Source: a virus. From it: 23,883 nucleotides of DNA. Both the position numbers and the translations under genes were made by a program. The stretch covers positions 1 through 23,883 of the IMG/VR virus record IMGVR_UViG_3300018410_000049; one strand, 5' to 3'. Of the stretch, positions 25 through 5,889 are shown in pieces. Numbering within the stretch: the first letter of the stretch is position 1; each line of letters starts with the position of its first letter. Below the pieces are notes generated by a model. It made no database searches. It saw only the letters and a program-made list of their open reading frames with translations, and was not told the origin of the DNA.

Positions 25-798
25 ATGGATGCAACATACGTGCTACATGTGCCAGAATTTACAGAAAGGAAGGTCATAACATCCGATAGATTATCAGAAC
101 AAAAAATTAAATCAGGAAAAACACTATTAGATACTGTTACTTGGTGGAATGGATTTTATGGGGAAAACCATATAGATCCTTTGATTCATATACCTGATTT
201 TACATATCATTATTGTTGGTTAACTAACCCTGATCCATTTCAAAAATTTGGCAAAAAAGAAGATGAAGTAATTGACATTATGTCAGTTGAACAGATGCAG
301 AACTTTATTATAACCTCATCTCAGGCTGAAAGCAATATAGCTATGGGACATGTTGATATCCTAAAAGATATTGTAAAGAAAGGTCATAGAGCTGCGCTTA
401 TAATGGAAGATGATATTACCTTTGGTGCTGGAGCAATGTGGTTATTAGAATCTATGTTTGAAGAACAATTACCACACGATTGGGATTTAGTGTATTTAGG
501 CGGACAACCATGTGATTGGGGATTTGAATCAGAATCTTATTCAAGAGATTTAGATAGAGTCTATAATGGTGTATATTGGATGTCAGGTTATATAATAAGT
601 CAGTCAGGTGCCCGCAAATTACTAGATAATTTACCTGTAATTGGGCCAGTTGACGTATGGATTAATCACCACCTTAGAGATATGAAAGTTTATACAACAT
701 TTAAGCCGTATATTGGTCAAGATAAAACACTTGATAGTTATAATCGTTATTCATTTGCAGATGCTATTCTAAAAGAGAATAATAACAAAGATATATAA
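25..798 (+). CDS. GT25-family glycosyltransferase (LPS-biosynthesis type), possibly 5'-partial
   Basis: Probable glycosyltransferase of family 25, which transfers a sugar from a nucleotide-sugar donor, typically to lipopolysaccharide or another surface glycan. Visible motifs follow the family order. The N-terminus TYVLHVPEFTERK resembles the usual 'Y-V-hydrophobic-L-P-x-x-x-x-R' start. Next comes NIAMGHVDILKDI, then the acidic ALIMEDDITF (EDD at residues 128-130), DWDLVYLGG at 152-160, GYIISQSGARKLL at about 188-200, and an acidic PVDVW near 208-212. The 257 aa length fits the family. The frame stays open to the first base of the window, so the true start could lie upstream; ATG at 25 is used because the GT25 fold normally begins within a few residues of this point. 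Target unknown: host surface glycan or a virion protein are both possible. Confidence 0.82.
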   Translation: MDATYVLHVPEFTERKVITSDRLSEQKIKSGKTLLDTVTWWNGFYGENHIDPLIHIPDFTYHYCWLTNPDPFQKFGKKEDEVIDIMSVEQMQNFIITSSQAESNIAMGHVDILKDIVKKGHRAALIMEDDITFGAGAMWLLESMFEEQLPHDWDLVYLGGQPCDWGFESESYSRDLDRVYNGVYWMSGYIISQSGARKLLDNLPVIGPVDVWINHHLRDMKVYTTFKPYIGQDKTLDSYNRYSFADAILKENNNKDI

Positions 799-817: not shown

Positions 818-1342
818 ATGAGCAAAAAAATATTATCATTTGAAGAATACGCTGCTAGTAAAAATTTAGATAGCGCTGAAGAAATCACAGAATCATGTGA
901 CGCGTGCGGCGAAGATCCATGTGTTTGTGAATCTGAAGAGGTTGAAGACACAGAAGAGGTTGAAGACACAGAAGAGGTTGAAGACACAGAAGAGGTTGAA
1001 GACACAGAAGAGGTTGAAGACACAGAAGAGGTTGAAGACGAAGATGAGGATGAGCAAACATTAGAGTCATGTTCTGAACAATTAAAGAAATGTTATGAAT
1101 ATGCTATTAAAGAAGCGTGTGATTATGACAAAGATGATTATCCAGATCATACACTAGAAGGTTACCTTAAAGAAAACGCTGCATTAGTTGCTTCATTGTC
1201 TGCGTCTGCATTAGAACAAGCACATGCTGAGCTTAAAGACGACGAACTTACCATTGAGGTATACGAGTCCTGTTTAAACGCTATGAAAGAATCATACAAT
1301 AAAAAGATTGACGAGTTAAAAGAGACTTGGTCATCAAATTAA
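818..1342 (+). CDS. acidic repeat protein with Cys cluster, unknown function
   Basis: I do not recognise this 174 aa protein. It begins MSKKILSFEEYAAS, loosely like the N-termini of the three following genes but without a clear protease site. A cysteine cluster CxxCx4CxC (C27, C30, C35, C37) could bind a metal. Five exact EEVEDT hexapeptides and a sixth degenerate one follow (residues 40-75), giving a strongly negative, probably disordered segment. The C-terminal 95 residues are helical in character with further Cys residues (SCSEQLKKCYEYAIKEAC). The start at 818 has an A/T-rich leader and no Shine-Dalgarno. The negative stretch could mimic DNA or bind a basic partner, but that is speculation. 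Confidence 0.72.
   Translation: MSKKILSFEEYAASKNLDSAEEITESCDACGEDPCVCESEEVEDTEEVEDTEEVEDTEEVEDTEEVEDTEEVEDEDEDEQTLESCSEQLKKCYEYAIKEACDYDKDDYPDHTLEGYLKENAALVASLSASALEQAHAELKDDELTIEVYESCLNAMKESYNKKIDELKETWSSN
935..1039 (+). repeat. in-frame 18-bp tandem repeat (5 exact copies plus a partial sixth)
   Basis: The unit gaagaggttgaagacaca is repeated without a single difference at 935-952, 953-970, 971-988, 989-1006 and 1007-1024, followed by 15 matching bases at 1025-1039. It encodes EEVEDT. Exact identity suggests recent expansion by slippage or unequal recombination. Copy number probably varies between related phages. Confidence 0.95.
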
Positions 1343-1355
1343 AAATTAAATAAAT

Positions 1356-1796
1356 ATGAAACATATAAAACTATTTGAAGCTTTCGTAAACGAAGCAACC
1401 GTAGATGCTCAAGGATTTGAAGACGAATTTGCATCAGTAATCTTTAGTGTTGAAGAACGCATGGGTAAAAAACTTAATAATAAGCAAATTATGCAAATTA
1501 TAGTAGTAGCATTTGAAGAGGTTTGTAAACTAAATAAATTTAAAGAAGTTTCTCACTTATTACCTACAGCTCTTATAAAAGTAGGCGTTGAGTTTGACCC
1601 AGGGTTTAAACGCGGAGGTGCTACGGCTGAAGCGCGTGGTTTTGCAAAAGCTATGTACGGTGCTACAGGCGGTACTTGGCAAGGTACTATGGAGTGTTTT
1701 AAAGCATTATACACTACTATGGCAAATGTACAAGATAGAAAGGCAAAATTAATAGGAAGTCATCTTACTAGTTGGTTTAATGCTAGTCAAAACTAA
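1356..1796 (+). CDS. candidate internal (ejected) head protein with capsid-targeting sequence
   Basis: The 146 aa product starts MKHIKLFEAFVNEA. In phage T4, internal proteins such as IPIII start MKTYQEFIAEA; that short peptide targets them into the prohead, and the prohead protease cuts after (I/L)-x-E before A or G. Here VNE|A at residues 11-14 gives the same layout, so cleavage after E13 is predicted. The rest is not recognised, but it is paralogous to the next gene: the stretch FEDEFASVIFSVEE aligns with FADMFAETMADIEE, and TMECF near the C-terminus aligns with MVECF. Inference: a protein packaged in the capsid and injected with the DNA. The mature function is unknown. Confidence 0.72.
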   Translation: MKHIKLFEAFVNEATVDAQGFEDEFASVIFSVEERMGKKLNNKQIMQIIVVAFEEVCKLNKFKEVSHLLPTALIKVGVEFDPGFKRGGATAEARGFAKAMYGATGGTWQGTMECFKALYTTMANVQDRKAKLIGSHLTSWFNASQN

Positions 1797-1815
1797 ATTA
1801 AAAACAATTATAAAA

Positions 1816-2235
1816 ATGAAACACATTAAATTATTTGAATCTTTCGTAAACGAAGCTAAAAACCCAAATCCAGTAATGTTCGCGGACATGTTTGCTGAAA
1901 CTATGGCAGATATTGAAGAATCTGGACAAGAGTTATCTAACGAAAACTTATTGTACATGTTAGAAAGAGCATTTAAAGTTGTTGCTGAACAAAATAATCT
2001 TCGCGAAAGAGGTAGCGCTTTAGAATGGGCCTTTATACGCGAAAAAATTAAAACAGATACTCAATACATGGGTAAAGATTTGTATCAAGATGCAAATATC
2101 TTTGGCGAAGCAGCATATGCTGAAACAGCATTTCACTATGATGGTATGGTAGAATGCTTTGTTTATGTTCTTAAAGAATTCGGACTACTTAAGCCATCTC
2201 AATGGAAAAAGGTTAAAAAGAGATTAGAGGCTTAA
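1816..2235 (+). CDS. candidate internal (ejected) head protein, paralogue of the preceding gene
   Basis: The start is set at ATG 1816 because the product then begins MKHIKLFESFVNEA, matching its neighbour, and the ATG follows the upstream stop. A longer in-frame start at 1780 would lie inside the previous gene and add 12 unrelated residues. Length is 139 aa. The predicted prohead-protease site is VNE|A after E13. The body shares a pattern with the 1356 gene product, including a helical segment ending in AF(K/E)xV and a C-terminal MVECF. The DNA of the first 40 coding bases is also close between the two genes. Function of the mature protein unknown. Confidence 0.72.
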   Translation: MKHIKLFESFVNEAKNPNPVMFADMFAETMADIEESGQELSNENLLYMLERAFKVVAEQNNLRERGSALEWAFIREKIKTDTQYMGKDLYQDANIFGEAAYAETAFHYDGMVECFVYVLKEFGLLKPSQWKKVKKRLEA

Positions 2236-2253
2236 TAAAATAATACTATTAAA

Positions 2254-2679
2254 ATGAAACATGTAAAACTATATGAAGAGTTCATCAATGAAGGCCTAAA
2301 AGCAGGTAGAGATGAGCCAATTGCAAAAGCTATCATTGCATACAGATATGCCGTAGAAGGCAGCGATCACGCAGACGAACTTAGATCAATGGGCTTGAAT
2401 CCCGAGAGATCTGATTCAAATCCAGAACAACAAGAATATCTTTCAGGTTGGGGTAAAGATGCAGTTAGAGCGCTTTCAGGTGCTAGAAGAATTCCTAGTA
2501 AATACATGACTGGTACTGTAATTACTTTAGCAGCAGATAACGGTAATTCATACTACTTTGACGGTGGTGATTTAGTAGAAGGTGATAAAACTATTATTAG
2601 AAATGCTTTGAAATTAACTTGGACTCAACTTATTGACGAATTAATCAAGCTAAAAGTTATTGAAGAGCCTAAATACTAA
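2254..2679 (+). CDS. candidate internal (ejected) head protein with capsid-targeting sequence
   Basis: The 141 aa product begins MKHVKLYEEFINEG. The INE|G at residues 11-14 is an exact match to the T4 prohead-protease consensus (I/L)-x-E|(A/G), with predicted cleavage after E13. The remainder is unrelated to the two preceding paralogues as far as I can see. It has a helical N-terminal half, then a segment around TGTVITLAADNGNSYYFDGG that looks like beta strands, and an acidic/basic C-terminus ending IEEPKY. It is the last gene before a strong terminator, so these three genes probably share one transcript. The mature function is unknown. Confidence 0.72.
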   Translation: MKHVKLYEEFINEGLKAGRDEPIAKAIIAYRYAVEGSDHADELRSMGLNPERSDSNPEQQEYLSGWGKDAVRALSGARRIPSKYMTGTVITLAADNGNSYYFDGGDLVEGDKTIIRNALKLTWTQLIDELIKLKVIEEPKY

Positions 2680-2711
2680 TTGAGTTTAAGTATCATCGAA
2701 TTAAACTTTTT

Positions 2712-2744
2712 AAAAGGTCTGTGTATAATGCATGGACCTTTTTT
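2712..2744 (+). terminator. rho-independent terminator
   Basis: AAAAGGTC at 2712-2719 pairs with GACCTTTT at 2735-2742. The stem may extend inwards through GTGT/GCAT with G-U pairs, leaving a small ATAAT loop, and the 3' arm runs into six T residues (2739-2744). It lies between the internal-protein genes and the dCMP deaminase, whose ATG is only 18 bases further on. Confidence 0.85.
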
Positions 2745-2762
2745 ATTTAATAGACTTTAAAT

Positions 2763-3284
2763 ATGCCTAGAATACCAGTAGAAATTATTTATATGCAAAT
2801 AGCATATCAAACAGCTAAACTTAGTTATGCTCAGCGCCGCCGTGTTGGTTGTATTATTGTTAAAGATGAACAAATTGTTTCATTTGGTTATAATGGCACT
2901 CCACATGGATTTAATAATGAGTGTGAAGAAACTTTAGTTGAAACTCAAAATTATGAGAACCCCGATCATGCTTTACATTTAGTAGAAGAACACGGATATG
3001 TATGCGAGAATGGATGCTGTACTAAAGAGACTCAAACTACAAAACGAGAGGTTCTACATGCAGAATCGAATGCTATTACAAAATTAGCAAAATCTACGAT
3101 GACATCTATTGATGCAGACCTATATACTACTACGGCTCCATGTTTTGATTGTGCTAAATTAATTATTCAAGCAGGTATTAAACAAGTATATTATTCAGAA
3201 GATTATAGAGATATGAGTGGCGTTGAATTATTAGAAAGGGCAGGAATCATCACAAAACAAGTTATATGTTGGAACGCGGATTAG
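2763..3284 (+). CDS. deoxycytidylate (dCMP) deaminase
   Basis: Zinc-dependent deaminase converting dCMP to dUMP, feeding thymidylate synthesis during phage DNA replication. The 173 aa length is close to T4 dCMP deaminase. Visible motifs are VGCIIVKDEQIVSFGYNG (residues 28-45, substrate side), the catalytic HAE at 99-101 (H99 zinc ligand, E101 proton shuttle), and PCFDC at 126-130 (two more zinc-ligand cysteines). An insertion at about 60-95 carries a CENGCC cluster, where family members often hold a second, structural zinc. The gene follows the terminator closely and overlaps the helicase gene by 19 bases, so the two are translationally linked. Confidence 0.95.
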   Translation: MPRIPVEIIYMQIAYQTAKLSYAQRRRVGCIIVKDEQIVSFGYNGTPHGFNNECEETLVETQNYENPDHALHLVEEHGYVCENGCCTKETQTTKREVLHAESNAITKLAKSTMTSIDADLYTTTAPCFDCAKLIIQAGIKQVYYSEDYRDMSGVELLERAGIITKQVICWNAD

Positions 3285-5007: not shown

Positions 5008-5889
5008 ATGAAAAGATTTTTAAATAGATTTAGTACTGCTGATAAAATAACTATACTGCTAAAGGTTTTAGCTGTGGGTACATTAGCTTTACTTATGAGT
5101 AGTTGTGCTTCTTTAGATTTTAGAATTGCTACATTAAATTACGCTGCACAAAGACAGTCGTTGAATGTATCTAGTCCAACTGAGGTAAAAACGTTCACAA
5201 GCAGCTTTGACACATTTAAAAATTTAGATCCTCAAGATTTAGGACTTTCATTTGGTGGAAATTGGGTTCACTGTCGAATTCATGGTTTTCATGATTTAAA
5301 CAATTGGACAGATTTTACTTATAATCCATATTGGTGTAGACCTAGTGCTGGTTTTATGAGAGCGTCTTTATATAACTGGAACTGGGGAGGTTACAATTAT
5401 TGGAATAATCAAATATGGGGATATACTCCACATAGATGGTCGCCTTTTGGATATGACAGATGGGGATATAATAACTGGATGGGTAATGTTTATTATGGTA
5501 ATGGATGGAACAACTATTATGGATGGAACAATACATACGTGCCATATTATTGGAGAAGATCTAATATAAATGGTAGAAGAGGTAATGTTTCACCTAGAGT
5601 GCGATCAACTAGAACCAACACACCAACTAGAGTTATTAGAACTAGGCCTACAAGAACTCGAACACTGCCGAATAATGTTAGACCAACTAGAACACGTACA
5701 ATACAAAATGATATTAGACCGGTTAGAACACCTATCAGAAGATCTGATGTAAGACCACCTATGAGAACTGTCACACCACCGATCAATAATACACCTAATA
5801 ATATTAGACCTGTTAGAACAAATACTAGGACGACTACTCAACCTAGAAGATCTAAACCAACAAATGTAAAGAAAGACAATTTAAAATAA
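5008..5889 (+). CDS. predicted lipoprotein with Trp/Tyr/Asn-rich core and Arg/Thr-rich tail
   Basis: 293 aa. A basic N-terminus, a hydrophobic segment (about residues 13-31) and LMSSC with Cys at 33 form a lipoprotein signal peptide, so export and lipidation at the host envelope are predicted. Residues about 85-185 are extremely rich in W, Y, N and G. The C-terminal 100 residues are rich in R, T and P with a loose repeat (NNVRPTRTRT, NDIRPVRTPI, SDVRPPMRTV, NNIRPVRTNT). I recognise no enzyme domain. It may have been acquired from a host. A phage lipoprotein made during infection could block superinfection or coat the surface; this is inference only. It begins 12 bases after the helicase gene. 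Confidence 0.8.
   Translation: MKRFLNRFSTADKITILLKVLAVGTLALLMSSCASLDFRIATLNYAAQRQSLNVSSPTEVKTFTSSFDTFKNLDPQDLGLSFGGNWVHCRIHGFHDLNNWTDFTYNPYWCRPSAGFMRASLYNWNWGGYNYWNNQIWGYTPHRWSPFGYDRWGYNNWMGNVYYGNGWNNYYGWNNTYVPYYWRRSNINGRRGNVSPRVRSTRTNTPTRVIRTRPTRTRTLPNNVRPTRTRTIQNDIRPVRTPIRRSDVRPPMRTVTPPINNTPNNIRPVRTNTRTTTQPRRSKPTNVKKDNLK

Follow-up and report, generated by a model that had tools for sequence, protein, structure and literature searches.

A 13-residue N-terminal tag shared by three tandem genes of an uncultured virus resembles the capsid-targeting sequences of T4 internal proteins

The window studied here, a viral DNA fragment of 23,883 bases analysed at its full length, carries three genes in tandem on the plus strand, for which open reading frames and translations confirmed a shared leading peptide: gene 1 (1356..1796, 146 aa), gene 2 (1816..2235, 139 aa) and gene 3 (2254..2679, 141 aa). 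This peptide, hereafter the tag, spans the first 13 residues and reads MKHIKLFEAFVNE in gene 1 (1356–1394), MKHIKLFESFVNE in gene 2 (1816–1854) and MKHVKLYEEFINE in gene 3 (2254–2292), with the products starting MKHIKLFEAFVNEA, MKHIKLFESFVNEA and MKHVKLYEEFINEG, respectively. The reading frame of gene 2 is open from 1780, with the tag beginning only at the ATG at 1816. The original prediction of three tandem genes with a common N-terminus thus held, the open reading frames and N-termini being as it had described. With a slash marking the predicted cut after E13, the next residue is A in gene 1 (MKHIKLFEAFVNE/A), A in gene 2 (MKHIKLFESFVNE/A) and G in gene 3 (MKHVKLYEEFINE/G), and the predicted mature proteins would start with ATVDAQGFEDEF from A14 in gene 1, with AKNPNPVMF from residue 14 in gene 2, and with GLKAGRDEP from G14 in gene 3.

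Beyond the tag, genes 1 and 2 have paralogous bodies (30–34% identity), to which that of gene 3 is unrelated, giving the window two unrelated tagged bodies. Homologs of gene 3 were found at seven other loci, with M1, K2, L6, E8, F10, N12 and E13 as the invariant tag columns. Structure prediction gave an all-helical protein for gene 1, and in the AlphaFold models of genes 1 and 3 the mature part was confident, whereas the tag residues were below pLDDT 50, with a short helix at residues 3–11. All three products are single small domains. Searches of Pfam and PHROG assigned genes 1–3 to no functional family and gave no known inhibitor family among their matches, so that none of the three could be counted as a member of an anti-defence family, and genes 1 and 3 had no fold match in the PDB at E <= 0.001. 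A match of gene 1 to Colicin_immun was discounted, being weak (E 0.008), below the cut-off and running across the tag.

Upstream of gene 1, also on the plus strand, lies a gene for an acidic protein (818..1342; product MSKKILSFEEYAASKN..., starting MSKKILSFEEYAASK) with a degenerate tag, in which the F-x-x-Y core is present and the L/I-x-E is absent from its usual place. In the relatives described below this gene is a conserved neighbour of the cassette, and some orthologs have a clearer tag, as with MASIKKFEEFVSE in G022; we regard its product as a likely fourth, core-like member of the tagged set. For such an acidic, possibly head-targeted product, a role as core protein or as DNA mimic can be envisaged, neither being more than a possibility. 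Tandem 18-base units (GAAGAGGTTGAAGACACA, EEVEDT) were also seen within this protein, at 935–1040 of the window, with a run length that differs among orthologs.

The stretch from the acidic gene to the dCMP deaminase gene constitutes a variable slot (1343..2762, plus strand), in which relatives have from 0 to 3 tagged genes, and not the same ones. In the relative L380 the dCMP deaminase and helicase are 99% identical to those of the window and gene 3 is present (87%), with genes 1 and 2 missing. Gain and loss at the slot among close relatives is thereby shown, as is characteristic of the variable cassettes of T4-type internal proteins; dispensability of the genes can be inferred at most. The dCMP deaminase gene (2763..3284, plus strand) forms the conserved right flank and a glycosyltransferase family 25 gene (25..798, plus strand) the left flank in some relatives, both being untagged and mentioned for context only. 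Genes in the rest of the fragment, among them those for the dCMP deaminase, a helicase and the baseplate, are untagged. The fragment also encodes, at 5008–5889, a 293-aa protein whose start is lipoprotein-like, whose middle is rich in aromatic residues and glycine, and whose tail is repetitive and rich in arginine and threonine; no match to it was found in Pfam or PHROG.

Using the baseplate wedge protein of the window as query, we found 36 annotated phage records, of which the best was LR756500.1 (462 kb, 40% identity), with further matches in other huge phages, Prevotella Lak phages, Tenacibaculum pT24 and others. The same protein led to 80 IMG/VR loci, some of them 98–100% identical, and large stretches taken from many relatives made up the comparison set. 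No annotated phage near-identical to the window was found in the phage collection. Several of the relatives infect Bacteroidota, and members of this group are therefore the likely hosts, as judged by kinship only. The tag marks an uncultured jumbo-phage clade akin to Bacteroidota phages. A contig assigned to the MAG of an uncultured Bacteroidetes (L401; CAIWBA010000291.1, 254 kb) contains tagged genes together with a gp23-type capsid gene; it is likely a phage contig, and could conceivably point to the host.

A search for the same N-terminus elsewhere, which the original prediction had called for, gave no matches beyond genes 1–3 when a degenerate DNA pattern of the tag was used on the whole window record, and many in the relatives. 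A strict DNA pattern, encoding MK[HY][IV]KLFExF[IVM]xE, found the tag in viral contigs at 119 stretches or more, and only once in a collection of genomes from about 85,000 bacterial and archaeal species. That sole match lies on a contig that also codes for a gp23-type capsid protein and is thus probably of phage origin, having been binned with a bacterium. Among the relatives' loci gathered by then, 141 distinct proteins matched the strict pattern. With a tag profile, genes 1–3 scored 38–40 bits and 28 of 913,415 internal protein windows scored above 8 bits, the profile having been partly trained on genes 1–3 and the tags of relatives, so that this is a measure of contrast and no blind test. 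Profile matches above 8 bits, some of them weak, numbered 22, 22, 27, 21 and 13 in the five largest IMG/VR relatives, and the profile scan found zero in the cultured relative pT24, which has an S77 protease. Over all loci, 425 tagged open reading frames formed 175 clusters by body similarity, 109 of which were single (an earlier set had 261 in 130 clusters). The tag and its spread over unrelated proteins are thus shown, with one peptide standing on several unrelated proteins per phage, as judged from the two bodies of the window and the many clusters of the relatives.

To see where conservation ends, we took starts of the form M[KR][HYK][IVL] regardless of their later positions, and found conservation at positions 5 to 13 with background level from position 14 onward, so that the predicted cut coincides with the end of the conserved unit. 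The residue following E13 was, family-wide, often A, S, K, E or G. The 141 tags derived from 122 distinct 39-mers, in which synonymous sites vary and the protein is kept. The codons CAC (His), CTA (Leu) and GTA (Val) were commoner in the tags of these 141 proteins than in the genomes, a skew that might be due to cassette exchange or to early-codon effects.

For entry of T4 IPIII into the head, its first ten residues are enough; residues 4 and 7 of the T4 CTS govern targeting and residues 8 and 10 processing, and gp21 cleaves after L/I-x-E (PMC9026906). An Asp at position 10 blocks the cut in T4. Alignment on the F-x-x-F core places T4 positions 4, 7, 8 and 10 at tag positions 7, 10, 11 and 13, and the tag thus has both an N-terminal aromatic-x-x-F targeting core and an L/I/V-x-E site. 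The statement in the original prediction that T4 internal proteins start MKTYQEFIAEA held only in part, as this is true of IPII and IPIII only, with IPI starting MKTFKEFTSTTTPVSTITEA and having the F-x-x-F core and the cleavage site set apart. Its rule of cleavage before A or G was also only partly borne out, S, K and E being further residues seen after E13 in the family.

The gp21-type protease that had likewise been proposed as a search target was missing from the 23.9-kb fragment, as was a capsid gene, and was found in relatives. Neither did we find any near-identical longer record with a protease or capsid gene, and the closest longer records to the window gave no capsid gene. Since the window record has neither gene, inference about protease and capsid rests on the relatives. 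There, an S77 prohead protease was found in 5 of 20 records, then in 12 of 13 records, and also in LR756500.1 and pT24; one relative having it carries a baseplate protein 83% identical to that of the window. A gp23 capsid gene was present in 8/8 relatives' records. The gene order shown for relatives, being portal, acidic tagged gene, S77 protease and capsid, parallels the T4 order 20-67-68-21-22-23, the portal having been named by position and length without a family match. In G002, G004, G009, G028 and G030 this acidic gene at the gp67 position bears the tag, with a looser version in G001, G003, G022 and G025. In G003 and G022, insertions separate the F-x-x-[FY] core from the cleavage site, with VQE/DA or LQE/DA still exactly before the conserved DA[LI]xAGExS body. 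No gp67-position gene was found between portal and protease in LR756500.1. The protease open reading frame of the relatives is long, about 600–730 aa, from which a protease–scaffold fusion may be inferred as a possibility. A second, short S77-like open reading frame (about 132–135 aa) was seen beside the main protease in G022 (57359–57613), G023, G024 and LR756500.1 (154951–155127).

Multidomain proteins, either tagged or with an FxxF start, were present in relatives, and domains found directly after a full tag in one phage recur inside larger proteins of another. The internal copies are preceded by a linker ES[VLIF]x[NT]E and then mostly A, G or S, as exemplified by MKNVKLFEDFLNE/AKILTRDEMMST versus IKPDFNESLVNE/AKNLTREELVKI. 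An [ILVFM]-x-E lay <=3 residues from the boundary in 84 of 113 distinct events, as compared with 16.9 on average, and never more than 27, when positions were drawn at random 200 times from the same proteins, and exact [ILVFM][NTS]E occurred 26 times at domain boundaries versus 0.6 at random positions; the 113 events are not phylogenetically independent. Two or more linkers were found in 28 open reading frames without a full tag (0 in the reversed-sequence control), many of which open with a short F-x-x-F form such as MNFQDFLNEG or MKKFNEFLSEG. Linker density in proteins of at least 250 aa was 0.84 per thousand residues for tagged versus 0.12 for untagged proteins. The plain motif [ILV].NE[AGS] was not enriched inside tagged proteins (1.08-fold), and the claim of cleavage therefore rests on the boundary and linker tests. 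The boundary sites themselves are shown; because domains that follow the tag follow ES[VLI]x[NT]E elsewhere, cleavage after the E is supported and cleavable strings of cargo are suggested. A small zinc-ribbon-like module (CDNCGW...CHKC) was moreover noted between tag and next domain at L187:4485 and L278:1845, with an [IA]NES site after the module.

With regards to recognisable cargo, Tad3 (PF25185, above cut-off) was found in relatives in five open reading frames, four of them tagged and the fifth untagged, with the domain coming after a second site (SINE/G). Acb1-like 2H proteins (PF23474, around cut-off) were tagged in 9 of 10 inspected open reading frames, with 7 of 14 matching records above the cut-off; that these tagged 2H proteins are Acb1 is weakly supported and only possible. 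The presence of the tag on Tad3 and Acb1-like proteins is thus shown, neither being found in the window itself. Other tagged cargo included GNAT, cytidylyltransferase-like, Zeta-toxin-like kinase, NUDIX, PNK phosphatase, metallopeptidase and leucine-rich repeat proteins, and the majority of tagged proteins had no match to anything. PADLOC matches of tagged proteins were weak and scattered, and were set aside.

We consider it very likely that genes 1–3 encode capsid-targeted, protease-trimmed and injected cargo of the T4 type. That their products are packaged, cut and injected, and what they do, is inferred, there being no virion proteomics. The tag would act as the capsid-targeting sequences of T4 internal proteins do, in that F7 (Y7 in gene 3) and F10, as counterparts of T4 Y4 and F7, would dock on the prohead core. 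The S77 prohead protease of the clade would then cut after E13, in [IVL]-x-E, and the mature protein would stay in the head beside the packaged DNA, to be injected with the DNA at infection for immediate action on the host, most likely versus its defences. Each phage would have about 13–27 tagged genes, gained and lost as cassettes, and larger proteins would consist of small domains joined by ES[VLI]x[NT]E sites and separated by the same protease inside the head. As for the original prediction, its claim of capsid targeting with prohead-protease trimming is strongly supported by the comparison with relatives and T4, because of the gp21 (S77) and gp23 genes, the tagged core gene, the residue match with T4 and the sites at domain boundaries; presence in virions and the cut at E13 stay inferred. 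Its suggestion of anti-defence function is supported for the tagged class, by Tad3 and the Acb1-like proteins, and not for genes 1–3 themselves.

Could the tagged proteins instead be helpers of the prohead core or scaffold, cleaved and with a role in assembly without any delivery of effectors? This is in line with the tag being found on the acidic gp67-position protein adjoining the protease, and T4 IPIII is known to influence the rate of head assembly (PMC9026906). We nonetheless find it unlikely, for the cargo is very diverse and patchy, with 109 of its 175 clusters single, includes enzymes (GNAT, NUDIX, cytidylyltransferase-like, PNK phosphatase and Zeta-toxin-like kinase) and tagged homologs of anti-defence proteins, and varies among close relatives.

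We hold two further explanations to be very unlikely. One is that the N-terminus stays uncleaved and directs the proteins to another target, such as the host membrane, a replication compartment or another phage assembly; the short helix at residues 3–11 could be another signal and cleavage is only inferred, but conservation ends at E13, the L/I/V-x-E is kept at domain starts despite changes in spacing and turns up again within multidomain proteins where the remainder of the tag is missing, and a gene adjoining the prohead protease is tagged. The other is that the 39 bases form a DNA or RNA element, either a recombination site or a translation signal, with the peptide as a by-product. Tag codons are indeed somewhat skewed, with CAC, CTA and GTA above genome usage, and tagged genes act as exchangeable cassettes; against this stand the synonymous variation among the 39-mers with the protein constant, and the keeping of the protein-level site in internal linkers within other DNA context.

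Returning to the T4-type reading, the likeness to IPI–IPIII lies in a short N-terminal peptide common to otherwise unrelated small proteins, an aromatic-x-x-F core followed by L/I-x-E, the variable cassettes and, in relatives of the window, the S77 protease, gp23 and portal in the same gene order. All three T4 internal proteins inhibit GmrSD (type IV) restriction enzymes, and at least ten internal proteins are reported across T4-related phages (PMC12373910). The clade tag, MKHIKLFEQFVNE, however differs in sequence from that of T4, and the largest relatives have 13–27 tagged open reading frames as compared with three internal proteins in T4. The clade is also unlike T4 in having the tag directly on the gp67-position core gene, in its multidomain strings with internal short sites and in a host group that by kinship is Bacteroidota. 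These strings come closest in concept to polyvalent proteins (Iyer et al. 2017, PMC5512222), phage-encoded products that likewise unite several domains in mixed arrangements, with GNAT in both, and for which packaging and injection have been proposed; genes 1–3, as single domains, do not qualify as such. Separation in the clade would differ in that the prohead protease would act at ES[VLI]x[NT]E sites following a targeting tag; the clade strings yielded no embedded autoprotease, though few of their domains were recognised. Giant phages of the phiKZ/SPN3US kind share trimming by a Glu-specific prohead protease of many head proteins, some of them ejected, but the cleavage motif of phiKZ is S/A-x-E and the N-terminal propeptides of SPN3US have 20–254 residues, versus one 13-residue tag on many unrelated proteins here (PMC10052503, PMC9026906). 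The Tad3 (Thoeris inhibitor) and Acb1 (anti-CBASS 2H phosphoesterase) families are known ones, of which the copies in relatives carry the capsid tag.

A bolder reading, towards which we lean by a narrow margin, is that of a general cargo-loading system, in which the 13-residue address and the cleavable linkers deliver effectors by the dozen at infection, before phage gene expression, with one exchangeable for another and with Thoeris and CBASS inhibitors among them. An architecture of cleavable strings was not found in the open-access literature searched, and a 2026 jumbo-phage review leaves capsid targeting and prohead protease unmentioned, which is weak evidence of novelty confined to open-access literature. 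If the reading is true, the tag would serve as a sequence-level index of proteins delivered before any phage gene expression, most of which are of unknown function and would be good anti-defence or takeover candidates. The T4 internal-protein principle would also be extended, at larger scale, to large environmental phages, and the Thoeris and CBASS antagonists would be predicted to arrive with the DNA, making the timing of counter-defence testable.

Leucine-rich repeats were, finally, met with in two groups of tagged open reading frames. In the 462-kb huge phage LR756500.1, a variant tag, MKYIKEYEEFILEA, stands on about 20 open reading frames including leucine-rich repeat proteins (for example L146:11706-14282). 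In G021 (IMGVR_UViG_3300025030_000041), about 15 tagged paralogs (AKDIFIPRRLKERWDDLL...) are dispersed in one genome (for example L318:1503-2393), at least one of which has leucine-rich repeats.
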